Positions 4,380 to 25,364 of a DNA stretch of 25,364 bases are shown piece after piece. The notes under the pieces are model-generated. The model searched no databases and was not told the DNA's origin. It saw only the letters and a program-made list of their open reading frames with translations. The translations under genes were made by a program, and so were the position numbers. The stretch is from a virus, in the IMG/VR virus record IMGVR_UViG_3300046751_000453, positions 1 to 25,364 of that record; one strand, written 5' to 3'. The stretch's first letter is position 1. Each line of letters starts with the position of its first letter.

Positions 4380-5036
4380 ATGGCTATACAAATCAGTGGT
4401 ACAGAAGTAATCAGCAACAGCAGGGGCTTGAACAACATAGCTTCTGTTGACGCAACTACGGCAGCATCCATAAGTGCGGCTGGTGTAGGTGGTGGTGGTA
4501 CTTTTGAGAAACTTTCAACCACAACCATATCTAGCAGTACATCTGTGGTTTATACAAATCTATCAGTAGACACCCATAACAGGTTTCAGGTTCATTTGTC
4601 AGGAATAGAGGCCGCAAGTGGAAGCACAAAGCTATCTATGCGGCTTGTGTCAGGCCCAGATAGTAATGGCTGGTACAATAACTACAACATATATGGAAGT
4701 GAAGCAGCTATATTTCAGATGGGTCAGTCAGCCACAGTCATAGACAACGACAGCCAAATTGGAATGATTTGGTTACTTCATGAGGATATGGAGTTGGGGC
4801 GTACTACACCTTATTCGGCAGATTTAATCATTAATGTATATGGCGTTGGCTCTGCATCTTCATTGTATCCAAGAGCGCATTGGTTTGGAAAAGTAAACAA
4901 CGATACAATTGCAGGGCATTGGTATAACACCAATTCTGTGGCGGGTACACCAAGCGGGAAACAGGCTTTTGCGTTTTCTGCTTCTGGCGGCACTATGGAT
5001 AAGGGTACATTTACTTTATATGGGGTTAATGACTGA
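4380..5036 (+). CDS. Second tail-fibre / receptor-binding-like protein
   Basis: 218 aa. The N-terminus MAIQISGTEVISNSRGLNNIASVDATTAAS is a recurring leader of marine phage tail proteins, followed by a Gly spacer (GVGGGG) and a beta-rich C-terminal domain of about 170 residues ending FTLYGVND. No chaperone domain is present. The stop overlaps the next ATG as TGATG, coupling it to the putative tail chaperone at 5036. It shares the lower GC of the neighbouring fibre. A short accessory fibre or fibre tip is likely; exact role unknown. Confidence 0.65.
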   Translation: MAIQISGTEVISNSRGLNNIASVDATTAASISAAGVGGGGTFEKLSTTTISSSTSVVYTNLSVDTHNRFQVHLSGIEAASGSTKLSMRLVSGPDSNGWYNNYNIYGSEAAIFQMGQSATVIDNDSQIGMIWLLHEDMELGRTTPYSADLIINVYGVGSASSLYPRAHWFGKVNNDTIAGHWYNTNSVAGTPSGKQAFAFSASGGTMDKGTFTLYGVND

Positions 5037-7122: not shown

Positions 7123-8601
7123 ATGCCTCTGGTGAAGCTAGACATACCAGCCGGCGCGGTACGCAACGGCACAGAATACGAAACAGGCGGACGTTGGCGC
7201 GATATGTCACTCGTCCGCTTTTACAATGGCGTCCTTCAGCCGATCAACGGGTGGCGTAAACGCGTCACAAACCAGCTCACCGGCATCCCGCGCGCAATGC
7301 ATACGTGGCGCGAGAACGACGGCACGCGCTGGTTGGCCGTTGGCACAAACTCTAACCTGTACGCGTTTGAGGCGGGCAACACTCTAGACGACATTACGCC
7401 AGCAGACTTAACATCTGGCTCCGCGACGCAGACAGGCTCCGTGGGCTACGGCGTTGGCGCATACGGCGCTGATGAGTGGGGCGCGCCACGTCCAGAGGCG
7501 TCTACAACGCTTGTAACGCCAGCGGCGGCGTGGAGCTTGGATAACTGGGGCGAGTACCTTGTTGGCGTCTTATCTAGCGATGGACGCATGTTTGAGTGGG
7601 ACTTAACGTCTGGGACTGCGTCGGTAATCGCCAACGCGCCTGTCGGCGTTGACGGCGTCATCGTCACAGAGGAGCGCATCATCTTCGCGCTCGGCGCGCA
7701 GAACGATCCGCGTCGCATCGACTGGTGCGACCAAGAAAACAACACTCAGTGGACTGCGTCGGCGACAAACCAAGCCGGTAACCAGATACTGGCGACCAAC
7801 GGCAAGATCGTCACCGGCTCCAAAGTGCGCGGCGGCACGCTAATCCTCACGGACATCGATGCACACTTAGCCACATACTTGGGCCAACCGTTCGTGTATC
7901 GATTTGACCGCGTAGGCACTGGCTGCGGCGCTGCGTCGCAAGGCTGCGTCGTGCAAGTTGACGTAGGGGCAGTGTGGATGGGCCGCGACGGCTTCTGGAT
8001 TTACGACGGTGCAGTGCGTCCGTTAGAGAGCCCAATTGCTGATTACGTGTTCCGGAATCTTAACGAGAGCCAGATCACGCGTGTGACGGCGTTCAACAAC
8101 TCCAAGTATGGCGAGGTATGGTGGCTGTATCCAAGTGGAGACAGCAACGAGTGCAATCGCTACGCCGCGTGGAGCTATCGCAATAACACATGGACAATCG
8201 GCGAGCTTGGCCGCACCGCAGGCACTGACGGCGGCATCTTTGGCCAGCCTATTATGGTGACCGCGGACGGCTACGTTTACGATCACGAGGTTGGCTGGAA
8301 CTACGACGGCAACGATCCGTTTGCTGAGACGGGGCCAATTGAAATCGGTCAGGGCGATAACTTAGCCGTCATTACGCGCCTCATACCTGACGAGCGCAAC
8401 TTGGGCGACGTCACAGCGACGTTCACGAGCCGCTTGTACCCGAATGCAGACGAAAGCACGCACGGGCCGTTTACGCTCACCGCTGAGACAGACGTGCGCT
8501 TTACTGGACGGCAAGTGAAGCTGAAGGTGACGGGCGCCAAGAATAGCGACTGGCGTGTTGGAGACATGCGCGTTGACGTGAAGCAAGGGAGCAAGCGATG
8601 A
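7123..8601 (+). CDS. Tail nozzle / P22 gp10-like stabilisation protein (tentative)
   Basis: 492 aa, GC-rich. The N-terminus PLVKLDIPAGAVRNGTEYETGGRWRDMSLVRFYNGVLQPINGW and subsequent blade-like segments (RWLAVGTNSNLYAFE, GEYLVGVLSSDGRMFEW, DGFWIYDGAVRPLESPIADYVF, NNTWTIGELGR) suggest a beta-propeller-like fold as in the P22 gp10 and SU10 nozzle families. Those bind the adaptor ring and hold the tail tube and needle. The order after the adaptor and among fibres fits, but no diagnostic catalytic residues exist and the assignment rests on pattern and context. The stop overlaps the next ATG (GCGATGA). Confidence 0.55.
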   Translation: MPLVKLDIPAGAVRNGTEYETGGRWRDMSLVRFYNGVLQPINGWRKRVTNQLTGIPRAMHTWRENDGTRWLAVGTNSNLYAFEAGNTLDDITPADLTSGSATQTGSVGYGVGAYGADEWGAPRPEASTTLVTPAAAWSLDNWGEYLVGVLSSDGRMFEWDLTSGTASVIANAPVGVDGVIVTEERIIFALGAQNDPRRIDWCDQENNTQWTASATNQAGNQILATNGKIVTGSKVRGGTLILTDIDAHLATYLGQPFVYRFDRVGTGCGAASQGCVVQVDVGAVWMGRDGFWIYDGAVRPLESPIADYVFRNLNESQITRVTAFNNSKYGEVWWLYPSGDSNECNRYAAWSYRNNTWTIGELGRTAGTDGGIFGQPIMVTADGYVYDHEVGWNYDGNDPFAETGPIEIGQGDNLAVITRLIPDERNLGDVTATFTSRLYPNADESTHGPFTLTAETDVRFTGRQVKLKVTGAKNSDWRVGDMRVDVKQGSKR

Positions 8602-21336: not shown

Positions 21337-23529
21337 ATGTCAGAAGCATATTTTAACAAGGTCGTCGATGGAGCAGTAGGCGACGTCATTGCGTCCATGA
21401 AGGGCGGCAGAAACGAAAACCTCAACAAGGCAGCATTTTCGATTGGACGCCATGCGCACATGTCGCCGGCCAACATCGACGCGGCCATCTTGCAGCTACA
21501 CGCGGCGGCACGTCAGATCGGGCTTAAGGATTTCGAGATCAAGTCCACCATTGGCAGCGGATTTAAGCGCGGCGGAGAAAACCCTAAGCAGCTCGAAAAC
21601 TCGGATATACAACCGTATATACCAAGTGAACTTGAGCGGCTGGTTACACGTCTGGCCAGTAAAGACTTAATCATACGCGACGAGGAAAGCCGCAGAGACA
21701 AAATCAAGAAGGCGCAGGAGGCGTGGGAGCGCGCCGTACCGATCACAAGGGAAAACCTAGACGCGGTAAAGCCTGCGCTGCTTTACCTTAACTCACGCGG
21801 CCTTAGAGCAAGCGCAGCGGTTAACGTGGCGAAGTTTACACCAAACGCATACGACGGGCCAGCGATTATCTTTGCGGCGTCAACGCCGGAGGGCGAGATC
21901 GAGGGCATCCAGAGCGTGCTCCTAACGCCAGAGGGAAAGAAACGCGAGGTAAACGGAATATCGAAATACTCGCGGGGCGTCATTGCTGGAAATGTAATGC
22001 AAATCGGCGAAACGCAAGGCGAAAAGCCAATTGTCATTGTCGAAGGGCCAGAGGATGCGCTAAGCATACGTCAGGCAGCCAAAGACGATGCGGCGGTGAT
22101 CTGCACGTTCGGTAAGGCTGGCATGGCGACGTACACGCCTCCACGCGCCTCAGACGTTACGATCTGCGCAGACCCCGACCTCGACATTGAAAAGTGCGTC
22201 GACGTCCTCAAGGGCGACGGAAGTACTCAAGTGCACGTCATACGCTTTGACCAGCTAGACGCGGAAAACGTAAAGGACGCAAACGACTACCTACGTGAGG
22301 CTGGCGAAACAAAGTTGCGTGAAGCGCTGGCAACCGCGCAACTTTATGAAGAGGCCAAGCAGATACAGCTCGAAAGCGAGCGCCAGTGGCCAACTGAGTT
22401 TGAGGTCATCGACCCGTCGCTAATACCAAAGCGGCGTTGGATATATGGCACGCATTACATCCGCGGATACGTCAGCGTGTTGGCATCGATGGGCGGCGTG
22501 GGCAAGACATCCATGCAAGGCGTGGAGGCGTGCGCCATTGCGCTGGGAAAGGCGCTCCTTGAAGAGCCGGTGCGTGAGCAGTGCAACGTCTGGGTGATTA
22601 ACGGCGAAGACCCATACGAGGAAATGCAGCGACGCTTCGCGGCCATCTTCATCCACTACGGCATTAAGCCGGAGGACATACGCGGCAAGCTATTTCTCGA
22701 CGCTGGCCGTGATCTCATGATCCAGTTCGCAAAGCAAACGCGTGACGGCATCGTTACGGATGAAGACATGCTCGAGTACATGATCGAAAAGATTAAGCGC
22801 CACAACATCGGGCTGGTCATCATCGACCCGTGGGTTGGCTTCAACGATATCAACGAAAACGATAACGTCGCGATGAACGCAGCGGTCGCAGCGGCGCGCT
22901 ACGTTGCAGACAAGACCGACGCCGCGATCGTGCTAACGCACCACATTCGCAAGACTAACGGCGAAGACGCAACGGTCGACAGCGTCCGCGGCGCCGGATC
23001 GCTGATCGGTGCAGCGCGCGCAGCCCGCGTCATCAATCGCGTTAGCCAAGAAGACGCGATGAAGCTGGGCGTGTCGGAGCATGAGGCGCTCGGCATATTC
23101 CGTGTCGACGATGGCAAGGCAAACCTTGCGCCGCCGGCCGCAAAGGCGCTGTACCGGCGCATGCACGGGGTGGAGCTGCCAAACGGTGAATACGTGGGCG
23201 TCTGCGTGCCGTTCAAAATGCCAGACTTGTTCGACGGGGTCAGCGCAAAAGACGCGCAGGCCGTGCAGCGTTTAATCGGGGCAGCCGCGGAGCGTGGAGA
23301 GCCAATGCGCGCAGATGCGCGTGCAAAGTCGTGGGCGGGCAACGCGGTGGCCGTGCAGCTCGATCTCGACATGGACAAGCAGCACGAGAAGGCGCGTGCA
23401 AAGGCGATCCTGAAGAAGTGGATTGAGACAAACGTGCTGAAGGTCGAAGAGTGGCCAGACAAACGGCAGGGGCGTGACGTGCAATGCGTCGTCGTCGGGG
23501 AATGGATTAACGCGTCGGAGGTGGGGTGA
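21337..23529 (+). CDS. Toprim primase-like / RepA-type replicative helicase
   Basis: 730 aa, ATG 21337 behind AGGGA. Residues 20-82 form a small helical domain (GGRNENLNKAAFSIG...FEIKSTIGSGFKRGG) common in phage primase-helicases. Residues about 175-325 are a Toprim domain with E237 (IVIVEGPEDAL) and D279/D281 (ICADPDLD). Residues about 370-600 are a RecA-fold ATPase of the RepA/AAA_25 type: Walker A SMGGVGKT (384-391), Walker B LVIIDPW with D497, and the switch LTHH (533-536). No N-terminal zinc finger or complete DnaG RNA-polymerase domain was recognised. The primase part may therefore be divergent or act with another subunit. Core replication enzyme. The stop overlaps the next ATG. Confidence 0.88.
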   Translation: MSEAYFNKVVDGAVGDVIASMKGGRNENLNKAAFSIGRHAHMSPANIDAAILQLHAAARQIGLKDFEIKSTIGSGFKRGGENPKQLENSDIQPYIPSELERLVTRLASKDLIIRDEESRRDKIKKAQEAWERAVPITRENLDAVKPALLYLNSRGLRASAAVNVAKFTPNAYDGPAIIFAASTPEGEIEGIQSVLLTPEGKKREVNGISKYSRGVIAGNVMQIGETQGEKPIVIVEGPEDALSIRQAAKDDAAVICTFGKAGMATYTPPRASDVTICADPDLDIEKCVDVLKGDGSTQVHVIRFDQLDAENVKDANDYLREAGETKLREALATAQLYEEAKQIQLESERQWPTEFEVIDPSLIPKRRWIYGTHYIRGYVSVLASMGGVGKTSMQGVEACAIALGKALLEEPVREQCNVWVINGEDPYEEMQRRFAAIFIHYGIKPEDIRGKLFLDAGRDLMIQFAKQTRDGIVTDEDMLEYMIEKIKRHNIGLVIIDPWVGFNDINENDNVAMNAAVAAARYVADKTDAAIVLTHHIRKTNGEDATVDSVRGAGSLIGAARAARVINRVSQEDAMKLGVSEHEALGIFRVDDGKANLAPPAAKALYRRMHGVELPNGEYVGVCVPFKMPDLFDGVSAKDAQAVQRLIGAAAERGEPMRADARAKSWAGNAVAVQLDLDMDKQHEKARAKAILKKWIETNVLKVEEWPDKRQGRDVQCVVVGEWINASEVG

Positions 23530-23768
23530 TGAGTAGACACAGCCAGAAATCGAAGCAGCGTCATCCTGATGCGCCGCGGGAACACTTTGAGGTGGCGCAC
23601 ATAACATTCGAGATTGCGCCGGACGCGAAGACGTTCGCGCTCATAGCGGGCCAAGCGTACAGCGCAAAGGATCGCCGGCCGCTGTTCAGCGCGCACATAG
23701 AAAAAGGCATGAGCGAACAGCTACGTGAGCTGGCGTTCAGGCTTAGACAATTGGAGGAGGAGTTATGA
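23529..23768 (+). CDS. Small protein in replication operon, unknown
   Basis: 79 aa from ATG 23529, which overlaps the helicase TGA by 1 nt and has GGAGGTGGGG upstream; a GTG one codon earlier is an alternative. Basic N-terminus (SRHSQKSKQRHPDAPR), a beta-type centre (HFEVAHITFEIAPDAKTFALIAG) and a Leu/Arg/Glu C-terminal helix (LRELAFRLRQLEEEL). No family recognised. It shares ATGA with the next gene, so it is tightly co-translated. Confidence 0.7.
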   Translation: MSRHSQKSKQRHPDAPREHFEVAHITFEIAPDAKTFALIAGQAYSAKDRRPLFSAHIEKGMSEQLRELAFRLRQLEEEL

Positions 23769-24520
23769 TTAAAAAAGTTATAGCGGTTTGGTTTTCATGT
23801 GGCGCCGCTAGTGCGGTTGCCGCGCATTTAACGATAAAGAAGTACGGCGACTTTTGTGACGTGCGTGTCATCAATAATCCCGTGGCGGAGGAGGACGAGG
23901 ATAACAGACGCTTTTTGCACGACGTGGAAGACTGGATCGGCCAAGAAATTGAGATATGTACGAACGAAAAGTTCCCAAGTGCATCCGCAGTTGACGTGTG
24001 GGCAAAGCGCAAGTTCATGTCTGGCGTTGCAGGCGCACCGTGCACGCTCCTGCTGAAAAAGGAAGCGAGGCAGCAATGGGAAGCAAAAAACCATGTCGAT
24101 TTTCATGTGTTAGGCTTCACCTCAGAAGAAGAGGGTAGGCACGAACGCTTCGTACGCACTGAGCGCGAGAACGTACTGCCAGTGCTTATTGACGCGCAAT
24201 ATTCGAAGCTAGATTGCTATCAGCTCTTACGCGCAAACGGAATAAAACCTCCACGCGTTTATAATATGGGCTATCCAAACGCAAATTGCATTGGATGCGT
24301 GAAGGCGTCGTCTCCTACATACTGGAACCATGTGCGCAAAGTGCACCCAGATGTGTTCGAAGAGCGCGCCAGTCAATCGCGGGAGCTTGGTGCAAAGTTG
24401 GTGCGGGTAAATAACCAGCGTATATTCTTGGATGAGCTGCATCCAGACGCACTAGGAAAGCCAATGAAGAACTTAGACTTTGAGTGCGGATTATTTTGTG
24501 AGGAGTGGGATCATGACTAG
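23765..24520 (+). CDS. PAPS reductase-like (adenine nucleotide alpha-hydrolase) protein
   Basis: 251 aa, ATG 23765 behind GGAGGAGGAG. The N-terminal VWFSCGAASAVAAHL (residues 8-22) is the PP-loop in the variant SCGAAS form. GAPCTLLLKKEAR (C93) and the C-terminal pairs CIGC (C175, C178) and CGLFC (C241, C245) are consistent with a metal or Fe-S site. Family members activate a substrate by adenylation or transfer/reduce sulfur; relatives include PAPS reductase, DndC and tRNA thiolation enzymes. In a phage replication operon this could serve DNA or RNA modification or sulfur metabolism; the substrate cannot be assigned from sequence. Confidence 0.8.
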   Translation: MIKKVIAVWFSCGAASAVAAHLTIKKYGDFCDVRVINNPVAEEDEDNRRFLHDVEDWIGQEIEICTNEKFPSASAVDVWAKRKFMSGVAGAPCTLLLKKEARQQWEAKNHVDFHVLGFTSEEEGRHERFVRTERENVLPVLIDAQYSKLDCYQLLRANGIKPPRVYNMGYPNANCIGCVKASSPTYWNHVRKVHPDVFEERASQSRELGAKLVRVNNQRIFLDELHPDALGKPMKNLDFECGLFCEEWDHD

Positions 24521-24938
24521 ACCCATTTACGAGACGCAGACAGATCGCAACAACGAAAGACGCCTCGCAGCGAAAATCGAAAAGCACTACAACTGCATCC
24601 TGCTAAAGATGCCAATGAAGCTAAGCCTAGACTTCATGGCGATCCGCGACGGGAAAGCGGTGGCGTTCATCGAAGCTAGACAACGTAAGATCGCGATGAA
24701 CACGTATCCGACGTACATGCTGTCGCTCTACAAGGCGATGCAGGCACGCTCGCTCACAATGACAACCGGACTACCGTGTTTCCTCGCGGTGCAGTGGACG
24801 GACAAGGCTGGCATCGCAACACTCCCGCCAAGCCACGAGGATATGCACGTCGAAATGGGCGGCACAACGAGAAGAGACGATCCACAAGACATCGAGCCTA
24901 TGGTACACTTTGACATAGCTAAGTTTAAGGAGCTGTGA
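24513..24938 (+). CDS. PD-(D/E)XK nuclease-like protein
   Basis: 141 aa from ATG 24513 (GAGGAG upstream), overlapping the previous stop by 8 nt. A longer frame from 24480 lacks a ribosome site. The order N-N-E15 in the first helix (TDRNNERRLAAKIEKHY), D40 in LSLDFMAIRDG and FIEARQRK (E54-A-R56) follows the E...D-x(n)-E-x-K plan of small restriction/resolvase-like nucleases. An Arg stands in place of the usual catalytic Lys and a Lys lies at residue 59. The C-terminal half is beta/alpha (GLPCFLAVQWTDKAGIATL). It may be an active VRR-NUC/Mrr-like endonuclease or a DNA-binding derivative. Confidence 0.6.
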   Translation: MTRPIYETQTDRNNERRLAAKIEKHYNCILLKMPMKLSLDFMAIRDGKAVAFIEARQRKIAMNTYPTYMLSLYKAMQARSLTMTTGLPCFLAVQWTDKAGIATLPPSHEDMHVEMGGTTRRDDPQDIEPMVHFDIAKFKEL

Positions 24939-24940
24939 CA

Positions 24941-25195
24941 ATGACACTACCAATACCATTACGTGAGATAGAAGAAGACGAAAGCAAGCTGGAGCTTGGA
25001 CGCATCGTGTGGGACGAGGAAGTTGGAGGCGCCGTGATTGAGTGGTGCGCAGACGAGATGCCAATGATGTCATCAGCGGAGATAGACGTGGCATTCGTGA
25101 TGGAGGTGCTGCAAGGGATCGACACCGACGTGACGATGGCCAAGGCACTCAATATGGCGTTGCTGCGTGAGGGGTCGAATGGCACTTTGCACTAG
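24941..25195 (+). CDS. Small acidic protein, unknown
   Basis: 84 aa from ATG 24941, 2 nt after the upstream stop, with AAGGAG 8 nt before it; a GTG at 24935 is too close to that site. Very acidic (REIEEDESKLELGRIVWDEE and VIEWCADEMPMMSSAEIDV) with a C-terminal helix. Acidic mini-proteins in phages sometimes act as DNA mimics or inhibitors of host enzymes, but nothing here proves that. Last gene before the repeat array. Confidence 0.7.
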   Translation: MTLPIPLREIEEDESKLELGRIVWDEEVGGAVIEWCADEMPMMSSAEIDVAFVMEVLQGIDTDVTMAKALNMALLREGSNGTLH

Positions 25196-25197
25196 CT

Positions 25198-25332
25198 CCT
25201 CAGTTTCCTCAGTTGAACTGAGGTAGAGTGAGGAAGTGAGGTAAAAGAGGCCGATTTTAGTTCCTCCTCAGTTATTACGTATATATACGTAACTGAGGAG
25301 GTAACTTCGGACTGAGGTGAAAGTAACTGAGG
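25198..25332. repeat. Array of ACTGAGG/CCTCAGT repeats (iteron-like)
   Basis: Exact CCTCAGT at 25198, 25207 and 25266; exact ACTGAGG at 25217, 25292, 25311 and 25326; near copies AGTGAGG at 25227-25233 and 25235-25241. Copies at 25207 and 25217 form CCTCAGTT-G-AACTGAGG, an 8-bp inverted repeat with one central base. Seven exact 7-mers in about 135 bp is far above chance. The array fills most of the gap between the 84-aa gene and the gene starting at 25352. It could be a replication origin (iterons), a repressor array or an mRNA structure. Confidence 0.85.
25263..25301. promoter_or_regulatory. AT-rich 18-bp palindrome inside GC arms, possible origin or operator
   Basis: TTACGTATATATACGTAA (25275-25292) is a perfect 18-bp palindrome. 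It is bracketed by CCTCCTCAGTT (25263-25273) and AACTGAGGAGG (25291-25301), an 11-bp inverted pair that includes two of the heptamers. A long cruciform or hairpin can form. The TATATA centre would melt easily, as expected of an initiation site, but it could also be a dimeric protein's operator. Confidence 0.6.
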
Positions 25333-25351
25333 AAAGTGGAGGTATTGTTGC

Positions 25352-25364
25352 ATGGCAAAGAAAG
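25352..25364 (+). CDS. Start of next gene, cut by the right edge
   Basis: ATG 25352 preceded by GTGGAGG (25336-25342) at 9-nt spacing; only MAKK is visible. In this layout a DNA polymerase or other replication gene would be expected, but the visible residues cannot identify it. Confidence 0.55.

Follow-up and report, generated by a model that had tools for sequence, protein, structure and literature searches.

A repeat array and the phage primase-helicase that probably reads it: a candidate replication origin varying across about 100 uncultivated relatives

The window, that is, the whole stretch of DNA analysed here, is an IMG/VR virus record of 25,364 bases. Its genes include those of a RuvC-like nuclease, an exonuclease, a 730-aa primase-helicase and a PDDEXK nuclease, and RHH and HTH genes are also encoded by the phage. 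A PAPS-reductase-like gene (23765-24520), with close homologues in few relatives only, lies amid the replication genes. Towards the right end, a gap of 157 nt between an 86-aa ORF (end at 25195) and a gene starting at 25353 is filled by an array of nine heptamers, seven exact ACTGAGG and two AGTGAGG, spanning 25198-25332 with the orientation order - - + + + - + + +. The features of the locus are the following:

21337-23529, + strand: primase-helicase gene, 730 aa (DUF7146/Toprim primase, AAA_25 RepA-like helicase, C-terminal winged helix)
23245-23508, + strand: winged-helix DNA-binding domain predicted by AlphaFold2, codons 637-724
23320-23322, + strand: codon 662 (Arg), predicting the base before TGNGG
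23467-23469, + strand: codon 711 (Gln), at the wing tip in R-Q-G-R, predicting N of TGNGG
25198-25204, - strand: site 1, ACTGAGG
25207-25213, - strand: site 2, ACTGAGG, which makes an 8-bp inverted repeat with site 3
25217-25223, + strand: site 3, ACTGAGG
25227-25233, + strand: site 4, AGTGAGG, variant in the base preceding TGAGG
25235-25241, + strand: site 5, AGTGAGG, variant
25266-25272, - strand: site 6, ACTGAGG, left half of the inverted pair on either side of the AT palindrome
25292-25298, + strand: site 7, ACTGAGG, right half of the same pair
25311-25317, + strand: site 8, ACTGAGG
25326-25332, + strand: site 9, ACTGAGG
25263-25301, no strand: central hairpin/palindrome, with 12-bp arms CCTCCTCAGTTA/TAACTGAGGAGG (25263-25274/25290-25301) enclosing TTACGTATATATACGTAA (25275-25292)
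25353-25364, + strand: first codons of the next gene, which runs past the end of the window (197 aa in the relative L011, without Pfam match)

The first-pass annotation had described seven exact and two variant heptamers in both orientations over about 135 bp of a non-coding gap, together with two inverted repeats, one of them around an AT palindrome. Coordinates and sequence were confirmed on all these points, the inverted repeats being CCTCAGTT-G-AACTGAGG at 25207-25223 and the central pair at 25263-25301. ACTGAGG occurs 10 times in the whole window, and seven of these copies fall within the 135 bp of the array; the expected number per window is 2.1 +/- 1.6, and none of 100 shuffles reached 10. 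As in iteron-type origins, a short repeat is present in several copies, in one cluster per genome, and adjoins an AT-rich element (TTACGTATATATACGTAA in the window, with counterparts in relatives). The sites are not direct repeats, however, since they occur in both orientations and with irregular spacing (--+++-+++), and the array is therefore iteron-like rather than a classical iteron array.

In the centre of the array, the palindrome of the arms and that of the AT core are 1.5 bp out of register, so that a single strand is predicted to form one continuous hairpin, interrupted by a bulge of 3 nt. This hairpin is preserved by compensatory change across relatives, with a mean folding energy of -22.5 kcal/mol for the native sequences versus -12.2 kcal/mol for halves joined from different phages. 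Such covariation fits a melting or priming element, for which the hairpin is a candidate (as duplex melting element or as single-strand priming signal), although paired protein sites on duplex DNA would also lead to it.

Relatives were obtained from IMG/VR scans for the same locus, and all of them are uncultivated contigs. The 98 distinct loci considered are those with an intact helicase, only identical duplicates having been removed. The array is found at the same position in all 98, with a mean of 7.9 sites, and --+++-+++ is the commonest orientation string. The repeat core, (C/G)TG(A/T/C)GG, is uniform within a phage and differs between phages, with TGGGG in one clade; thus, 775 of the 819 TGNGG pentamers within arrays share the N of their own array. 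Each of 10 long genomes scanned contains one array, with a single N. The heptamer is consequently not as frequent elsewhere in these genomes as in the array, and the array is retained where the flanking genes are the same; both outcomes are the opposite of what, according to the first-pass annotation, would have refuted its reading. As sites in + orientation outnumber those in - orientation, pairing within a strand of RNA or DNA cannot explain the concerted change, while a protein reading the sequence can. L022 has lost the left part of its array near 7129 and retains three sites, by either deletion or assembly collapse at the hairpin. In L139 the helicase frame stops early, inside the helicase part, although the array is intact.

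In the longer relatives, the genes 3' of the array encode, in this order, a 197-aa protein, DUF6378, the small terminase and the large terminase, which places the array between the replication and the packaging genes. The 197-aa protein is conserved directly 3' of the array in all relatives (L011:11670-12263); it has no match in phage records or Pfam, and its only match in PHROGs is a weak one to a WhiB profile (E 0.018). Two contigs end within about 15 nt of the right border of the array (the window at 25364, and L159 at its start), probably as an assembly effect of the inverted repeats. GC skew climbs along each of the 10 long genomes in the coding direction and carries no origin signal. A nucleotide search of 24500-25364 against 50,697 phage records gave no match, and a search with the helicase in genome_contigs gave no relative, so that no host or prophage was identified.

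The primase-helicase combines, in one chain, matches to Toprim_3 and AAA_25 with a predicted C-terminal winged helix, which is the architecture of the P4 alpha type. The helicase of P4 alpha is an SF3 enzyme. The helicase part of the window protein is instead AAA_25/RepA-like: its core matches RepA of RSF1010 (1g8y) both in sequence (E 8.6e-08) and in fold (E 4.3e-07, TM 0.76 by target), and both the sequence and the predicted hexameric-helicase fold assign it to the RSF1010 RepA family. In the AlphaFold2 model, residues 637-724 form three helices (637-652, 668-674 and 682-697) followed by the wing strands 701-708/713-720, with residue 711 at the wing tip and residue 662 in the loop before helix 2, outside the canonical recognition helix. 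Over 637-724, model confidence lies at about 85-91 when the full-length protein is modelled and at about 76-87 for the domain by itself. A Foldseek search with the isolated C-terminal model gave weak PDB matches, the best of them to the BLM RQC winged-helix domain at E 0.012, and nothing below E 0.001.

The link between this protein and the array was found by testing every residue column of conserved phage proteins as a predictor of the variable bases of the repeat. In the first scan, covering 11 proteins, helicase residue 711 was error-free over three bases in 54 loci. The rule for this residue, within the motif R-X-G-R, is Gln with A, Asp with C, and Ala or His with T. It is correct in 96 of 98 loci overall, and it held in 47 of the 49 loci fetched after the rule had been stated, some of these being closely related to loci already used. 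Across 99 loci, a row with a gap at this position being counted as correct, residue 711 reached 98%, versus 80% for the next of the 730 columns and a baseline of 40%. The two exceptions are the sister loci L126 and L131, with Gln and TGGGG. Their arrays (TGGGG/GGTGGG) lie upstream of the 197-aa gene, and the C-terminal change that they share relative to the neighbours L132 and L129 includes Asp708Ala; Asp708 is possibly a third specificity residue.

The base preceding TGNGG follows residue 662, with Arg for C and Gln for G, in 98 of 98 loci (56 R-C and 42 Q-G); the next best helicase column reaches 95% and the baseline is 57%. This rule was spotted in a 36-row C-terminal alignment which is itself part of the 98 loci, and hence the figure is not a held-out one. 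Eight pairs of residues 662/711 were found, and each has the expected repeat except in the two TGGGG loci: with Arg662, RQ-CTGAGG, RA-CTGTGG, RD-CTGCGG and RH-CTGTGG; with Gln662, QQ-GTGAGG, QD-GTGCGG, QH-GTGTGG and QA-GTGTGG. On this comparative basis the code reads as combinatorial, with positions that are largely interchangeable. Of seven conserved proteins scanned residue by residue, the primase-helicase was the one that followed the repeat; the other six, taken as controls over up to 98 loci, had best columns of 71-83% (N) and 82-90% (preceding base). In the first scan, VRR/PDDEXK, p86 and DUF6378 gave 96-100%, in subsets which held A and T types only and are therefore not comparable.

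Many of the loci are related, which reduces the number of independent events to about 6-12. Placed on a tree built from helicase residues 1-640 (LG+G4, quick search), the changes number 12 for N and 11 for residue 711, and six each for the preceding base and residue 662. Independent contrasts agreed with the rules in 7/7 cases for T, 5/5 for C, 3/4 for A and 5/5 for the preceding base; p < 0.05 was reached by the sign test for T and not by the other three. Moreover, residue 711 differs in none of 296 pairs with the same N (82-99% identity), versus 17 of 19 pairs that contrast in N.

Several loci can be regarded as natural experiments. L051 and L053 differ in 17 of 730 residues, and in the C-terminal domain only by D711H, V719I and N725S; between their arrays, C is switched to T. 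In L217 and L218, residues 1-640 are 98.8% identical, 35 positions differ in 640-730 and the arrays are switched, as if recombination had exchanged the DNA-binding domain along with the array. Finally, L219 has a homologous primase part, a replaced helicase half and no TGNGG array. At 4406-4545, where its helicase gene has just ended, it carries five exact copies of TATGACG, which occur in both orientations and flank an AT hairpin; the layout is that of the TGNGG arrays, with a different motif. Joint inheritance of array and domain could be explained by physical linkage alone; linkage is nevertheless insufficient by itself, since the same residue-base pairs arose in separate clades.

Taken as a comparison of sequences, these observations make it very probable that the primase-helicase and the array are a binding pair, matched by two residues and two bases. 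With a probability of about 0.86, the array would also be the phage replication origin, its heptamers (core (C/G)TGNGG) being read by the predicted winged helix of the phage's own primase-helicase. Binding on its own does not prove origin function, and we infer origin activity from the residue-base link together with the analogy with established systems. An origin with iteron-like repeats beside an AT palindrome, as first suggested, thus appears as the best-supported reading. As for the binder, the HTH, RHH and helicase proteins had all been named as candidates: among them, it is the primase-helicase whose residues follow the repeat.

Other functions have to be weighed against this one. Immediately 3' of the array stands a gene, with the terminase genes farther on, and the phage has its own RHH and HTH genes; the repeats might therefore be an operator array through which a phage repressor, or the helicase-primase itself, controls transcription of the downstream gene and the terminase operon. 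Nevertheless, the residues that follow the sites are those of the replicative primase-helicase, which weakens this early alternative; for RHH59, the first scan gave a best column of 0.89 over 28 loci, and a homologue was found in only 31 of 63 loci; a crude test revealed no promoter-like (sigma-70-like) site in 24900-25364; and in L219 the array stands after the helicase gene, not before the 197-aa gene. An operator as the principal function is thus improbable, and a secondary autoregulatory role may exist. Still less probable is a packaging site (cos or pac) read by the small terminase encoded two genes downstream. Packaging sites often lie near the small terminase gene, and an Sf6-like one is found about 0.9 kb downstream of the array; besides, two contig ends are close by, that of the window 12 nt inside the next gene and the start of L159 15 nt before it. 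However, of 76 contig ends in the vicinity, 3 fall in the array bin, which is no enrichment, and the TerS columns, with 80% for N and 90% for the preceding base, are no better than those of other controls.

The first-pass annotation had also considered a folded mRNA leader with GGAGG decoys of the Shine-Dalgarno site, to which an antitermination-type RNA can be added. The central arms fold strongly and covary, and a GGAGG stands about 10 nt before the ATG of the downstream gene; an inverted repeat of duplex DNA flanked by paired protein sites would, however, covary alike. With six + and three - sites, three of the + sites are left without a partner, yet all change in concert, and they do so following protein residues 662 and 711, while Rfam gave no match up to E = 1; the leader can therefore be given very little credence. 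The same holds for a partition/incompatibility-like site or a recombination hot spot bound by the helicase-primase, with replication starting elsewhere. Binding alone does not show initiation, which leaves room for such a site, but none of the annotated neighbours was recognised as a partition gene, and origins usually have just this arrangement, with one array in each genome that the replicative helicase reads.

If the array is the origin, several copies of the primase-helicase would assemble on the sites in both orientations and open the AT-rich palindrome between the inverted sites 6 and 7. The protein would load as hexamers and then prime, with the central hairpin acting as melting element or as single-strand priming signal, and extension would be left to a host polymerase, which is proposed because no DNA polymerase gene was recognised among the annotated proteins. 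A more specific version is tentative and falls somewhat short of even odds: a one-protein starter, in which a fused Toprim-primase and RecA-type (RepA-like) helicase, reading its origin by means of a winged helix with a two-position code, would work without separate initiator or loader, the inverted sites placing two rings and the hairpin serving as priming template.

The origins of uncultivated phages are rarely assignable, skew and synteny being of little help. Here, about 100 natural variants serve as a mutagenesis series in which a helicase residue and the repeats have changed together many times, naming both the putative origin and its binding protein and giving a readable code (662, 711). 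This suggests a general method for finding origins, namely the search for a repeat array whose variable base tracks one residue of a neighbouring replication protein. Furthermore, if a RecA-type helicase recognises its own origin, this would be relevant to the loading of helicase rings where neither a dedicated initiator nor a loader takes part. Searches of the open-licence literature yielded no account of this array, and none of a phage helicase of the RepA type that recognises its origin by itself.

Among more distant relatives, the RecA-family ATPase of the Microcystis phage Mae-Yong1326-1 (OP028995), an isolated phage with an integrase gene, is a remote relative of the helicase (28% across 36% of the query). 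Directly after its gene (L221:7272-7465) lie GACTGGCGC-like sites in both orientations around a 27-nt inverted repeat. The motif is another one, and with a single genome there is no comparison of codes; by analogy, this array is possibly an origin of a related kind, and no description of it as an origin was found. Rhizobium phage RHph_X2_26, with another distant relative of the helicase, has no clear array within the stretches scanned.

With regard to established systems, the alpha protein of the satellite phage P4 is a single chain made up of a Toprim primase, a helicase and, at the C-terminus, a winged helix by which origin repeats are bound (PMC4234260). The window protein resembles it in uniting the same three kinds of domain, the likeness of the winged helices being one of architecture, and differs in its RepA/RecA-type (AAA_25) ring, in the sites arranged in both orientations around a hairpin and in the two-residue code across a phage group. 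As its helicase is not SF3, it stands outside the P4 alpha family, though it would work like P4 alpha and the Rep of SaPI. In SaPI Rep and SCCmec Cch2, the C-terminal domain of a helicase reads short origin repeats near its own gene (PMC7581432); these proteins belong to other helicase families and lack a fused primase, and the SaPI origin is directly downstream of rep, whereas the window array, L219 excepted, lies about 1.7 kb downstream with intervening genes. The oriV of RSF1010 (IncQ) combines repeats with the stem-loop priming sites ssiA/ssiB and is served by RepA, RepB' and RepC (PMC4234260). The helicase part of the window protein is homologous to that RepA, but RSF1010 employs three separate proteins, of which RepC reads direct repeats, whereas one polypeptide is proposed for the window phage. 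Finally, in the iteron-related domain of geminivirus Rep, a few initiator residues correspond naturally to the iteron sequence (PMC9083202); that protein is an unrelated rolling-circle initiator of eukaryotic ssDNA viruses, and the correspondence described here belongs to a winged helix on a helicase-primase. What is new is the putative fused initiator of RepA type, whose two-residue code can be followed through about 100 phages.
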